Assembly: GCF_004138165.1 (NCBI RefSeq)
Contig: NZ_RYFF01000037.1
Span: 1 to 55,428 of the forward strand
From: Candidatus Chloroploca sp. Khr17
Lineage (GTDB): Bacteria; Chloroflexota; Chloroflexia; Chloroflexales; Chloroflexaceae
Length of the DNA: 55,428 nt
Reading direction: 5' to 3'
Below are positions 16,150 to 19,829 of this stretch, piece after piece. Each line of letters opens with the position of its first letter. Positions within the stretch are counted from its first letter, which is position 1. Made by a program: the position numbers and the translations under genes. The notes below the pieces were generated by a model, which worked only from the letters and a program-made list of their open reading frames with translations, made no database searches and had not been told where the DNA came from.

Positions 16150-17523
16150 ATGATTCGTATCTCGCGCGCGCTGATCGCCGGCTCCATTGTGAGCGTTCTG
16201 GTCGCCATCATTGCCTTTGCCAGTGGCTGGACGGCAGCACGACTGGCAGGGACAACCTTTGTCGATAGTTTTCTTGCCAGTTTCGCGACAACCTCGGTTC
16301 GGCAGGATACGCCGACGAATATGCGTGACCAATTTGCGGTCTTCTGGCAGGTCTGGCATCTGGTTGAAGGCGAATTTTACCAGACCGAACCTATCGACCA
16401 GCAAGAGATGGTCTATGGCGCGATTCGCGGCATGCTGAGCTCGCTCGATGATGAGTATACAACCTTTCAAGAACCCGTTCTAGCCGCCCAGAGTCGCGAG
16501 TCAATGCAGGGGAAATTCGAGGGTATCGGGGCCTATCTCGGCATCAAAGAGGGCGAGATCATTATCGATCGGCCCTTCAAGGGCTCGCCAGCCGAACGTG
16601 CCGGATTGCAAGCAGGAGATGTCGTTGTCGCCGTCGATGGGCTCTTGCTCGGCCCAGAAATTGCCACCCTGAGCGATAGCGAGGCCACCAGCTTCGCCGC
16701 AAACAAAATTCGTGGCCCCAAAGGATCGCTTGTAACCCTGACGCTGCGGCGTGAACCAGACCCTGAGCCGTTTGACGTGGCGATCACCCGCGACGAGGTA
16801 CCCATCATCACCGTCAACGGCGAGATGCTTGACAATGGCGTTGCCTACATCCAGATCACCGAATTCAAAGCCACCACTACCGCCCTGCTCGACGATACAC
16901 TAAGCGAATTGATTCCGCAGCAACCAACCAGTATTATCCTCGATTTGCGGAATAATCCCGGTGGTTATCTACGCACTGCGCAAGAAGTCCTGGGCCGTTT
17001 TTACAACGGCGTGGCCCTCTATGAAGAAGAAAATGGCGGGGTCATCAAAGAACTCCGCACCATTCCCGGCGCGAGTGATACACGGCTGTATGACCCACCA
17101 ATGGTCGTGCTGATCAATGGGTCATCAGCCAGCGCCGCCGAAATTGTCGCCGGAGCCTTGCGCGACGAGCGTCCCAACACAACGCTGCTTGGTGAGCGGA
17201 GCTTTGGCAAAGGATCGGTTCAGAACATTCACCAGTTACGTGACGGCAGCAGTGCGCGCATCACCATTGCCCACTGGCTCACCCCTGATCGCTCGCGGAT
17301 CAATCGCATTGGCATCACCCCCGAGTACGAAGTGCTTGCCTCAGATGATCCGGCGTACATGGTACCCTGCGTCGCTGGACGTCGCCCGAACGAAGGCGCA
17401 CCAGCCTGTCACGACGCCCAACTCGCCTGGGGCCTCCAACTCCTCGCAGGCATCACACCACCACCGCCCTCCGAGCAAACAACCCTATTCCCTCAACGAG
17501 GCCCACCGGCCATCTTCTCATGA
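16150..17523 (+). CDS. ctpA: C-terminal processing protease (S41 family)
   Basis: This membrane-anchored serine protease of 457 residues has one N-terminal helix (LIAGSIVSVLVAIIAFASGW). A PDZ domain lies around residues 120-200 (GIGAYLGIKEGEIIIDRPF, SPAERAGLQAGD). The tail-specific protease core has LDLRNNPGGYL, then the Ser of INGSSASAAEIVAGAL and the Lys of ERSFGKGSVQ. It cleaves C-terminal tails of exported or envelope proteins. GAGG lies about eight bases before the ATG. The last 50 residues are Pro-rich and variable. A strong hairpin follows. Confidence 0.94.
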   Translation: MIRISRALIAGSIVSVLVAIIAFASGWTAARLAGTTFVDSFLASFATTSVRQDTPTNMRDQFAVFWQVWHLVEGEFYQTEPIDQQEMVYGAIRGMLSSLDDEYTTFQEPVLAAQSRESMQGKFEGIGAYLGIKEGEIIIDRPFKGSPAERAGLQAGDVVVAVDGLLLGPEIATLSDSEATSFAANKIRGPKGSLVTLTLRREPDPEPFDVAITRDEVPIITVNGEMLDNGVAYIQITEFKATTTALLDDTLSELIPQQPTSIILDLRNNPGGYLRTAQEVLGRFYNGVALYEEENGGVIKELRTIPGASDTRLYDPPMVVLINGSSASAAEIVAGALRDERPNTTLLGERSFGKGSVQNIHQLRDGSSARITIAHWLTPDRSRINRIGITPEYEVLASDDPAYMVPCVAGRRPNEGAPACHDAQLAWGLQLLAGITPPPPSEQTTLFPQRGPPAIFS

Positions 17524-17608: not shown

Positions 17609-17947
17609 TCACCAAGGAAGACGGGGTTGCCTGGGGAGGGCAGTGACGAGAGAGATCCGTCTGGGTTTGGTCGTCATCAGGACAAGCAACGGAATGGCGA
17701 CGATAACTGCCCCAATTGTATGAGGAACATGCAAACCAGGAAGCTCTCCCTGGTCAATGTGGACATGATCTGGTTCAAAACCCGATCCATCTAAGTCAGT
17801 TTGAAGGAGTGATAACCTCGGCTCCAGATGCAGTATAATCTCACTTTCTCCTTTTGAGGGGAAATTTATGACAACCTTTTGTGAGAGATTATTTACGGAA
17901 ACGCGCCTTTCGGTGCGAAAATCTTGGGTATGGTATACTTCGACCAT
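17609..17947 (-). CDS. Possible small membrane-anchored protein
   Basis: This frame of 112 residues is not recognised. In its favour, GGGGAG sits five bases before the ATG at 17947, a hydrophobic span AVIVAIPLLVLMTTK is followed by basic residues, and it ends next to the hairpin at 17549. Against it, its first 80 bases overlap the better-supported start of the pseudokinase gene on the other strand. If the pseudokinase actually starts at 17946, the two genes would be divergent and both could be real. Confidence 0.35.
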   Translation of the reverse strand: MVEVYHTQDFRTERRVSVNNLSQKVVINFPSKGESEIILHLEPRLSLLQTDLDGSGFEPDHVHIDQGELPGLHVPHTIGAVIVAIPLLVLMTTKPRRISLVTALPRQPRLPW

Positions 17948-19829
17948 GAACACTCCCCGCTTGCCAGTTCGTACCGACAAGCGTCCCAACGAAGGGCTTG
18001 TTGAACTGCGCAATTACACGTTGATCGAGTTGCAAGGCCAGGAAGAGCTTGCAACGATTTATCGTGCCACGCATCAGACGCTGGATCGCCCGGTCGAAGT
18101 GCATGTCTTGCGGCGCCATGATTGGATCTCGGTGAGTCGCTTTCAGCTTGCCGCCCGCCTGGCGGCTCGCCTGACCCATCCGGGCCTCGTTCCGGTGATC
18201 GATGCTGGTCACGATGAGCAACTGGGCGATTATCTCGTCACTCCTCAGCTTGATGCGCAACCGCTGCACAAGCTGCTCGAAGCAGGGCCAATGCCCCCGA
18301 TCCGGGTGTTGCGCATTGTGCAGCAGCTTGCCGCTGCCCTTGATTACCTCCACGGTGAAACGATCTTTCATCGCGATGTGCAGCCAGTCAATATTTTTGT
18401 CGGAAGCGAAGGCGTTGCCTATCTTGCCAATCTCAGCCTCGCGTCCGGGCCAGATACCCCCGATCTCAGCAGTATTGACGAGGCCGATTACCTGACCCCC
18501 TATTCCGCCCCGGAACAACGCCTCAGCAAGGGCGAGGCCGGTACAGCCCTTGATGTCTATAGCCTGGGGGCCGTGATCTACCATATGCTCACCGGCGAGA
18601 TTCCCACAGGGGCTGAATTACCTAGCCTCGCACGGCACGATCCCGGCCTGGTCGCCGCCGATCGCGTTGTACAGCGCATGATGGCGGCCCAACCCGCAAC
18701 TCGCTTCCCATCCGCAGGCGCGGCTGCCCTCGCGCTCCGCCAAGCCCTGCGGAGTTATGTCGATGAAGCCAGCGCTGATATGGAAGAGTCGCGCTGGGAA
18801 CCGGTAGCCGAGTGGCTCGATAATCCCGTCGAGACTGTCCTCCAAACGACTGGTAATGAACAATTTGGCGCTTTTCTGAGCCGCGCACGCAAACGCGCCG
18901 ACGAGTTGCACCGCCGTGATGCGATTCGCCGCCACCTTACCAGTTGGAGCCGCGATAGCTACTTTCGCCGCCGCAGCCTCGGTCAACTGATCGAGCTCGA
19001 ACAGATTGTGAGCTACAACGTCTATTTTTATGAACTCAAGATCTGTTACGAGACCCGGCAAGCGAGTCGGCCACGCGTGCGGCCCTTTGCCCCCGATGAT
19101 CAACCCTCCAACCAGGCTATCCCTGATCTCTGGACAATCCCTCTGCCTGAGGTCAAGCCTGACCGAAAATCCCGCCCCACCGAAGCCACCGTGCCCCACT
19201 CAATCCGCATTCTCCCCTGCACAACCTGTCTCCACGAAGGCAAAATCCCATGTAATGTCTGCAACGGCACGGGCCTGGTGACCAAAACCAATAAAATTTC
19301 GCATCCCGACCGCAGCCGCACCGAAGAGACGATTGAGGTCTCGTGTCCTCAATGCAAGGGCTATGGCAAAATCGCCTGCCCAACCTGCGACGGTCACGGC
19401 AAAATGACCGAAACCCAGGTCTTTCTCTGGTCACGTGAATTTCGCGTCTGGGAAGAGACCGATGATGTCGAAGATTTGCCGCCGGTCGCCCTGAAAACCG
19501 AGCGCCAACCCGTCTTTGCCGGCACCATCGATCTCTTTCAAGGCAACTGGCAGAGTGTTGCCCCACTCGCGGCTTTGATTGACGCTGCCTCGCAGTATGG
19601 CGACCAAGATACCCGTATCGTCTCAAGCGAGTTGAATGTCCACGGTGTAATGATCACCGAAATTGATGGCCTCCTTGAAGAAAAACCGCAACGCCTCTAC
19701 TTGATTGGCGAACAAAACCAGACGATCGGCGACTGGACCCTGCTCAACCCCGAACGCCTCATCCTCACAGCAGTCTTTGGCTTGCTCGCCTTGCTTGCGC
19801 TGTTGACCCTGATCTTTACCTTGTTTTGA
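17868..19829 (+). CDS. Predicted membrane pseudokinase with DnaJ-like zinc motifs
   Basis: The protein has 653 residues. Residues about 50-310 have the fold of a Ser/Thr kinase (YLHGETIFHRDVQPVNIFV, YSAPEQR, LDVYSLGAVIYHMLTGEIP). Catalytic positions are changed: the VAIK Lys is His (VEVHVLR), the catalytic-loop Lys is Gln (HRDVQPVN), and DFG reads NLS. Kinase activity is therefore unlikely. Residues about 448-510 carry four CxxC motifs of the DnaJ zinc-finger type (CTTC, CNVCNGTG, CPQCKGYG, CPTCDGHG) without a J domain. The protein ends in a single membrane span (LTAVFGLLALLALLTLIF). GAGGGG lies seven bases before the ATG at 17868. An ATG at 17946, closer to the domain, lacks such a site. It may bind a partner or misfolded protein at the membrane; this is inference. 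Confidence 0.85.
   Translation: MTTFCERLFTETRLSVRKSWVWYTSTMNTPRLPVRTDKRPNEGLVELRNYTLIELQGQEELATIYRATHQTLDRPVEVHVLRRHDWISVSRFQLAARLAARLTHPGLVPVIDAGHDEQLGDYLVTPQLDAQPLHKLLEAGPMPPIRVLRIVQQLAAALDYLHGETIFHRDVQPVNIFVGSEGVAYLANLSLASGPDTPDLSSIDEADYLTPYSAPEQRLSKGEAGTALDVYSLGAVIYHMLTGEIPTGAELPSLARHDPGLVAADRVVQRMMAAQPATRFPSAGAAALALRQALRSYVDEASADMEESRWEPVAEWLDNPVETVLQTTGNEQFGAFLSRARKRADELHRRDAIRRHLTSWSRDSYFRRRSLGQLIELEQIVSYNVYFYELKICYETRQASRPRVRPFAPDDQPSNQAIPDLWTIPLPEVKPDRKSRPTEATVPHSIRILPCTTCLHEGKIPCNVCNGTGLVTKTNKISHPDRSRTEETIEVSCPQCKGYGKIACPTCDGHGKMTETQVFLWSREFRVWEETDDVEDLPPVALKTERQPVFAGTIDLFQGNWQSVAPLAALIDAASQYGDQDTRIVSSELNVHGVMITEIDGLLEEKPQRLYLIGEQNQTIGDWTLLNPERLILTAVFGLLALLALLTLIFTLF

Follow-up and report, generated by a model that had tools for sequence, protein, structure and literature searches.

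In the window (the whole analysed stretch of 55,428 nucleotides from Candidatus Chloroploca sp. Khr17), we find a gene for a kinase-like membrane protein whose kinase domain is very likely catalytically dead, judging from its residues, yet held by selection. This pseudokinase is one half of an order-wide pair and not a lone oddity: across the order (Chloroflexales, going by named records), genomes that have it usually also retain an active-looking sister of identical build. With a natural series of losses in addition, a partner function can be tested on two proteins whose main difference is whether they are competent for catalysis. We give about an even chance to the reading that the protein is the dead member of an ancient kinase/pseudokinase pair that spans the order and serves as non-catalytic partner or scaffold of its twin at the membrane. 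Bacterial pseudokinases are described as largely unexplored by experiment in the abstract of a 2025 review (PMC12599244).

Gene and domain layout of the pseudokinase

The open frame (17868–19829, forward strand) translates into 653 aa, with M27 (17946) as the most likely start (Table 1). This start is favoured because the stop-to-stop frame opens only at residue 19 in the two nearest relatives and because an extended −10-like element (TGG-TATACT, 17931–17946, read by eye and in the window only) ends 6 bases upstream of that ATG, a position that a leaderless message would fit. The nearest named relatives, Candidatus Chloroploca asiatica and mongolica, share 95–97% identity in the pseudokinase protein. 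The AlphaFold model of the full-length protein (pTM 0.49) leaves the inter-domain arrangement undefined, and its hydrophobic C-terminal residues (628–653) are helical both there and in a model of the C-terminal module alone. The C-terminal helix proposed by the first-pass annotation of this DNA is borne out in this respect, and we read it as a putative membrane anchor.

Table 1. Coordinates of the pseudokinase gene, its parts, its upstream neighbour and related loci (plain numbers refer to the window)
Feature	Position	Strand	Details
S41 (CtpB-like) peptidase with PDZ	16150..17523	+	Directly upstream, same strand; listed as a neighbour only, outside the proposed system
Pseudokinase – SSUH2-like/DnaJ-zinc module – hydrophobic tail helix gene	17946..19829	+	627 aa from likely start M27
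Pseudokinase domain	18000..18767	+	Residues 45–300; Pfam Pkinase E 4.3e-19; AlphaFold model against PDB
Gly-loop replacement G57-Q58-E59-E60-L61	18036..18050	+	Alignment
beta3 Lys to His79, context PVEVHVL	18102..18104	+	Translation, alignment
alphaC Glu to Ala95	18150..18152	+	Translation, alignment
Catalytic loop HRDVQPVN; Asp170 and Asn175 kept, Lys to Gln172	18369..18392	+	Residues 168–175; translation, alignment
DFG to NLS	18429..18437	+	Residues 188–190; translation, alignment
APE motif, kept	18507..18515	+	Residues 214–216; translation, alignment
Helix F Asp229, kept	18552..18554	+	Translation, alignment
C-terminal module, first part	18768..19217	+	Residues 301–450; helices and long strand, conserved NVYFYEL...YETR
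DnaJ-type zinc domain	19218..19397	+	Residues 451–510; four cysteine pairs
C-terminal module, last part	19398..19748	+	Residues 511–627; beta-rich stretch
Hydrophobic C-terminal helix, read as membrane anchor	19749..19826	+	Residues 628–653; sequence and models
Active-looking paralogue, own genome	L065:6377-8434 (G000:C44)		
Kinase-less module frames in three g21 genomes	L070:5745-6812, L246:653-2011, L252:800-1873		356, 453 and 358 residues

A kinase fold without catalytic residues

Profile and model agree on a Hanks-type serine/threonine kinase fold like that of bacterial kinases: Pfam Pkinase matches the window protein above its cut-off (E 4.3e-19), and the best PDB matches of the AlphaFold model are chains of 6b2q, an entry with kinases A and B of M. 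tuberculosis (TM by target 0.79 and 0.81), followed by 4ow8 (PknA; 0.73). Within this fold, the three catalytic replacements reported by the first-pass annotation (VAIK Lys to His, loop Lys to Gln and DFG to NLS) are all present as His79, Gln172 and NLS 188–190, and the APE motif and helix F Asp that it described as kept are found at 214–216 and 229. Two further losses add to these, the alphaC Glu (now Ala95) and the second glycine of the Gly loop (now Glu59).

The losses of the beta3 Lys, alphaC Glu, DFG Asp and second Gly are shared by the orthologues. Among the 57 aligned pseudokinase rows, counting those with a letter at the position, Lys at beta3 is found in 0/53, the alphaC Glu in 0/53 and the DFG Asp in 0/54 (replaced by N, G or S)—the last count being circular since rows were labelled pseudokinase or active by their DFG Asp (contig-cut rows by other motifs), which does not apply to the other counts. 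Position 59 is E or D in 53/53 orthologous rows, while the active paralogues described below have G in 55/55. The HRD-Asp is present in all 54 rows and Asn175 in 38 of 54 (Thr in 13, Ser in 3). Pseudokinases are defined by loss of the beta3 Lys, the HRD-Asp or the DFG-Asp (main text of PMC12599244), and here the Lys and DFG-Asp are missing in all tallied rows that cover them, with the HRD-Asp retained. The earlier claim of a pseudokinase therefore stands as far as the kinase fold without catalytic residues is concerned, and the altered residues never revert in the tallied rows; what does not stand is the uniqueness of the domain order.

The invariant HRD-Asp and the frequent Asn175 are what would be expected if the domain still bound nucleotide or had some unusual activity, as an odd enzyme or nucleotide sensor, and the DLHK pseudokinases, which keep HRD-Asp and Asn with degraded ATP and DFG motifs, have nevertheless been modelled with ATP bound (main text of PMC12599244). 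We consider this improbable: the residue at beta3 is not fixed (His 37, Ser 8, Ala 6, Gln 1 and Tyr 1 among 53 rows), which also makes it doubtful that the histidine has been recruited for catalysis, position 175 is T or S in 16/54 rows, the DFG-Asp has become N, G or S, and the two acidic residues of the Gly loop should repel phosphates and disfavour ATP.

Conservation and selection across the order

Among 61 genomes searched (the own genome and 60 others from its genus, family and order), the pseudokinase protein is found in 56, the own genome included, a count that takes in partial copies, fragments and a frame-broken copy in genome G058, two pieces of which account for two of the 57 aligned rows. 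The C-terminal module is present in 60 of the 61. We had also considered G058 as a kinase-less case and dropped it, as its contig ends at that point and a piece of the pseudokinase lies in two frames on another contig; our tallies treat this genome as one with a kinase domain interrupted by a frame break, be it real or from assembly.

The lost catalytic residues could in principle mark a decaying pseudogene or a chance open reading frame, yet this has next to no chance of being correct: the protein is conserved with long open frames across four families of the order, and NG86 dN/dS values of the pseudokinase domain are 0.018–0.082 for 10 close pairs from three genera. By these estimates, the domain is under strong purifying selection. 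The corresponding values for the kinase domain of the active paralogue are 0.043–0.117 (10 pairs).

An active-looking twin of identical domain order

The same genomes carry a second protein with the same order of parts, in which a kinase domain is followed by the module, likewise with four cysteine pairs, and by a hydrophobic helix at the C-terminus. This paralogue shares ca. 30% identity with the pseudokinase protein over almost the full length but, unlike the latter, keeps the second Gly of the loop, the beta3 Lys, the alphaC Glu, the HRD-Asp, the Asn and DFG. Across its 57 aligned rows, counting those with a letter, Lys is found in 55/55, Glu in 56/56, HRD-Asp in 56/56 and Asn in 56/56. At the catalytic-loop position where kinases usually have Lys, 56/56 rows carry S, A or T, as in the own-genome copy with HRDVSPGN compared to HRDVQPVN in the pseudokinase. 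S, A or T in place of this Lys also occurs in active bacterial kinases. Three rows (L163, L164 and L168) have HCD instead of HRD, and the copy of G468, outside the tallied rows, reads DYG at DFG. The intact catalytic residues suggest a working kinase, while the S/A/T loop position, the HCD rows and the DYG copy count against a clean reading of the twin as active.

With regard to the first-pass annotation, which knew of no described system with this domain order, our literature search found none either among the papers listed (open-licence papers only, hence weak evidence), but the same genomes hold a paralogue of just this order with Lys, Glu, HRD-Asp, Asn and DFG intact, and the order is not unique to this protein. 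Homologues with intact catalytic residues, named there as evidence that would speak against the pseudokinase reading, thus exist in the form of the paralogue, while no orthologue is of this kind.

Both copies are present in 54 of the 61 genomes. The pseudokinase occurs without active copy in G023 (86% complete) and G059 (75%), the active copy without pseudokinase in G024 (95%, 970 contigs), G025 (85%) and G052 (80%), and neither in G034 (84%) and G039 (98%), the latter having the module only. A kinase tree was built from 90 rows, after 27 near-duplicates had been taken out of 117. In it, all pseudokinases group in a single clade (SH-aLRT 100, stem 1.57), one branch (94) has all active ones on the same side, and both together separate (91) from 9 of the 18 other kinase loci of the own genome, the rest of which were missed by the motif pattern. 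The pseudokinase and active labels each fall on a single clade. A module tree of 73 rows (near-duplicates and fragments removed), rooted on ten of 16 kinase-less outside relatives, has the same split; both are quick trees with SH-aLRT support only. Because the pseudokinases and active kinases form neighbouring clades, the simplest history would be one ancient duplication of the already fused gene before the order diversified, followed by a single loss of catalysis.

The C-terminal module and its possible likeness to SSUH2

The cysteine pairs (451/454, 462/465, 493/496 and 504/507) fit the arrangement of four CxxCxGxG repeats in the zinc domain of DnaJ (Hsp40), and none of the eight cysteines is replaced in any aligned row with a letter there. 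The first-pass annotation had correctly seen four pairs, but only pairs 2–4 are full CxxCxGxG motifs in the window protein, with the first degenerate repeat reading CTTCLHEG; Pfam DnaJ_CXXCXGXG matches below its curated cut-off (E 5.6e-5). The motifs are indeed a DnaJ-type zinc domain, though not a stand-alone part: they sit inside a larger module of ca. 350 aa that runs from helices and a long strand with NVYFYEL...YETR through the zinc domain and a beta-rich stretch to the tail helix (mean pLDDT 88.5 and pTM 0.72 when modelled alone).

Only the zinc stretch of this module matches solved structures with any confidence, DNAJA2 and DnaJ included. Foldseek of the module alone against the PDB finds the DnaJ zinc stretch of 7zhs (E 1.1e-3, TM by query 0.12), followed by hits at noise level, the best VIA-align hit is again 7zhs (Z 4.8), and a search of a viral structure library returns mostly zinc stretches. 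The beta-rich flanks have no convincing structural match in the PDB or the viral library, which shows neither novelty nor absence of relatives. The match of the zinc stretch to DnaJ by sequence and structure would agree with a protein that is mainly a DnaJ-like holdase, binding unfolded protein at the membrane through its zinc module with the kinase fold as a structural cap. We hold this to be very improbable since the match ends with that stretch: DnaJ and the pseudokinase protein have the four cysteine pairs in common, but the latter has no match to a J domain or the DnaJ C-terminal domain (Pfam, E up to 1), and similar zinc domains are found in proteins of other roles (e.g., anti-TRAP and BSD2). 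Of the chaperone-like function suggested in the first-pass annotation, the DnaJ-type zinc domain remains, but the suggestion was drawn from this domain alone, and its motifs belong to the wider module.

The module flanks, which no Pfam family matched in the window protein or the scanned kinase-less relatives, appear to resemble the animal protein SSUH2. An approximate, unverified 260-residue version of human SSUH2 gives 77.7 bits against the module profile A2, where the best of 200 shuffles with Cys and Gly kept in place reaches 31.8, and 74.5 bits against the kinase-less relatives (best of 200 such shuffles, 40.6). The part of this sequence after the zinc domain still scores 21.6 (A2) and 26.4 bits (kinase-less relatives), with 200 shuffles at most at 3.2 and 0.1. 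We take this as a strong lead that the module is SSUH2-like. SSUH2 (ssu-2) of animals, unlike the pseudokinase protein, is not known to have a kinase domain or tail anchor. Among the papers listed in our literature search, none was seen to describe a mechanism for SSUH2; should the likeness of the module to SSUH2 be genuine, work in a simple bacterium could offer a way into the human gene.

Outside the order, module frames of 457–748 residues with a second zinc stretch occur in the Chloroflexota families f24, f40 and f43, and a Pfam scan of two of these proteins found no kinase domain. By their appearance, these proteins of other Chloroflexota families (L182-L193 and L197-L201) look like bacterial relatives of SSUH2. 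Of 120 genomes of the class, 78 have a module match; 53 of these are members of the order, and the matches in the remaining 25 are no better than E 5.1e-7. Among 400 genomes of the phylum, with up to 5 candidates scored per genome, 360 are from outside the order and have no module match better than E 1.3e-17 among the matches listed; no match was found among PLSDB plasmids. These searches covered Chloroflexota genomes and PLSDB plasmids and do not imply that the kinase-module fusion is restricted to the order.

Kinase-domain losses in genus g21

Genomes of genus g21 are ca. 3 Mb in size, and three of them, G039, G466 and G478 (98, 93 and 87% complete), have a copy of the module without kinase domain; the active paralogue was not found in any of these three. 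The G039 copy falls inside the pseudokinase clade of the module tree, so the kinase domain was lost there, and the three losses are probably one event. Three other g21 genomes (G058, G472 and G468) have both a kinase-bearing copy and the active paralogue, while G474 (94% complete) keeps the pseudokinase with no active paralogue detected. The twin is thus missing in 3/3 kinase-less and 1/4 kinase-bearing genomes, which points the same way as the pairing across the order with too few genomes for significance.

A possible partnership of the two proteins

In the reading that we favour, both twins would sit in the cytoplasm on their tail anchors, and their shared modules or kinase folds would either bring them together or let them respond to a common ligand or client. 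The pseudokinase may then be an allosteric partner, a substrate that receives phosphate or a docking scaffold of the active twin, and one output may be an FHA/winged-helix regulator whose gene precedes that of the twin in some members of the family. The lost residues and their fixity, the purifying selection, the presence of both genes in most genomes and a tree compatible with one duplication all argue for such a pair, with the interaction itself as the conjectural step. Against it, the two genes lie apart and have no neighbour regularly in common, and the pairing could reflect two separately useful ancient genes.

The main rival builds on the latter point, with a stand-alone membrane scaffold that binds targets via zinc module and kinase fold and has no direct dealings with the twin, their co-occurrence being the shared ancestry of two useful genes. 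It agrees well with the module having its own use, as seen from its presence without kinase in other Chloroflexota and in the three g21 genomes, with the lack of a regular neighbour common to both genes, and with G474 retaining the pseudokinase without detected twin, but less so with pairing in 54/61 genomes at identical domain order and with a loss of the kinase domain that falls in genomes lacking the twin. We thus find it somewhat unlikely. A scaffold role, which the first-pass annotation had suggested, is one leading type of function for the pseudokinase.

A more specific version of the partnership seems unlikely. It posits an obligate pair of tail-anchored proteins that meet via their SSUH2-homologous zinc modules. 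At the membrane, the module would sense a client, the redox state or zinc, the dead member would switch the active one, and the FHA regulator would be an output. If true, this pair would work by a logic like that of receptor kinase/pseudokinase pairs, as their bacterial counterpart, and could help to find out what SSUH2 does.

Comparison with known bacterial pseudokinases

The pseudokinase domain of MviN is the docking site of an FHA protein after phosphorylation by PknB, and we know of no zinc module in MviN. This protein of Mycobacterium tuberculosis resembles ours as a dead kinase domain, deficient in ATP binding, within a membrane protein, but differs in that the domain belongs to a transmembrane protein on which peptidoglycan synthesis depends (main text of PMC12599244). 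The same review describes the bacterial pseudokinase families ActPs1-3, GLW, CP1, DYD and DLHK besides EssB/YukC, which like the protein studied here have degraded ATP- and metal-binding motifs and, in several cases, a C-terminal membrane region. DLHK shares with it the retained HRD-Asp and Asn, and DYD the missing alphaC Glu. Unlike our protein with its hydrophobic C-terminal helix (the putative anchor), DLHK is described there as mainly proteobacterial and without transmembrane region. The main text of this review does not contain the terms "chloroflex", "dnaj" or "zinc".

Gene neighbourhoods of the twins

We compared 24 pseudokinase loci (the window and 23 of 34 loci, with near-copies and fragments left out). 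An S41 peptidase gene as in the window is near the pseudokinase gene in 10/24 (locus L035 also has one), and other frequent neighbours encode mannose-6-phosphate isomerase (9/24) and RsmE (8/24), the window included in each case. A conserved neighbourhood as functional system was considered and rejected; we read it as inherited synteny. The genes of the pseudokinase and its twin are not adjacent: they lie on different contigs in the own genome and ca. 37 kb apart on the same contig in G003. No neighbour family common to both genes occurs in more than 3 of 25 active loci, which were picked out of the 57 rows to spread over genera.

Among these 25 loci, 9 have a same-strand run of FHA/Trans_reg_C, aroA, DUF6812, galE and the kinase with the twin last, and all 9 belong to the family of the window. 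Since FHA domains bind phosphothreonine, and kinase substrates are known among FHA-type regulators, this regulator is a candidate output of the twin; this concerns the twin in part of one family and is not evidence on the pseudokinase. In the own genome, the corresponding genes—FHA and winged-helix regulator, aroA, DUF6812, galE and the active twin—form an operon-like run (L065:2575-8434, G000:C44). Also near the twin there are genes for another kinase of PknB-like type (L065:614-2554) and for a large protein that looks by eye like a GAF/histidine kinase (L065:9290-12937).
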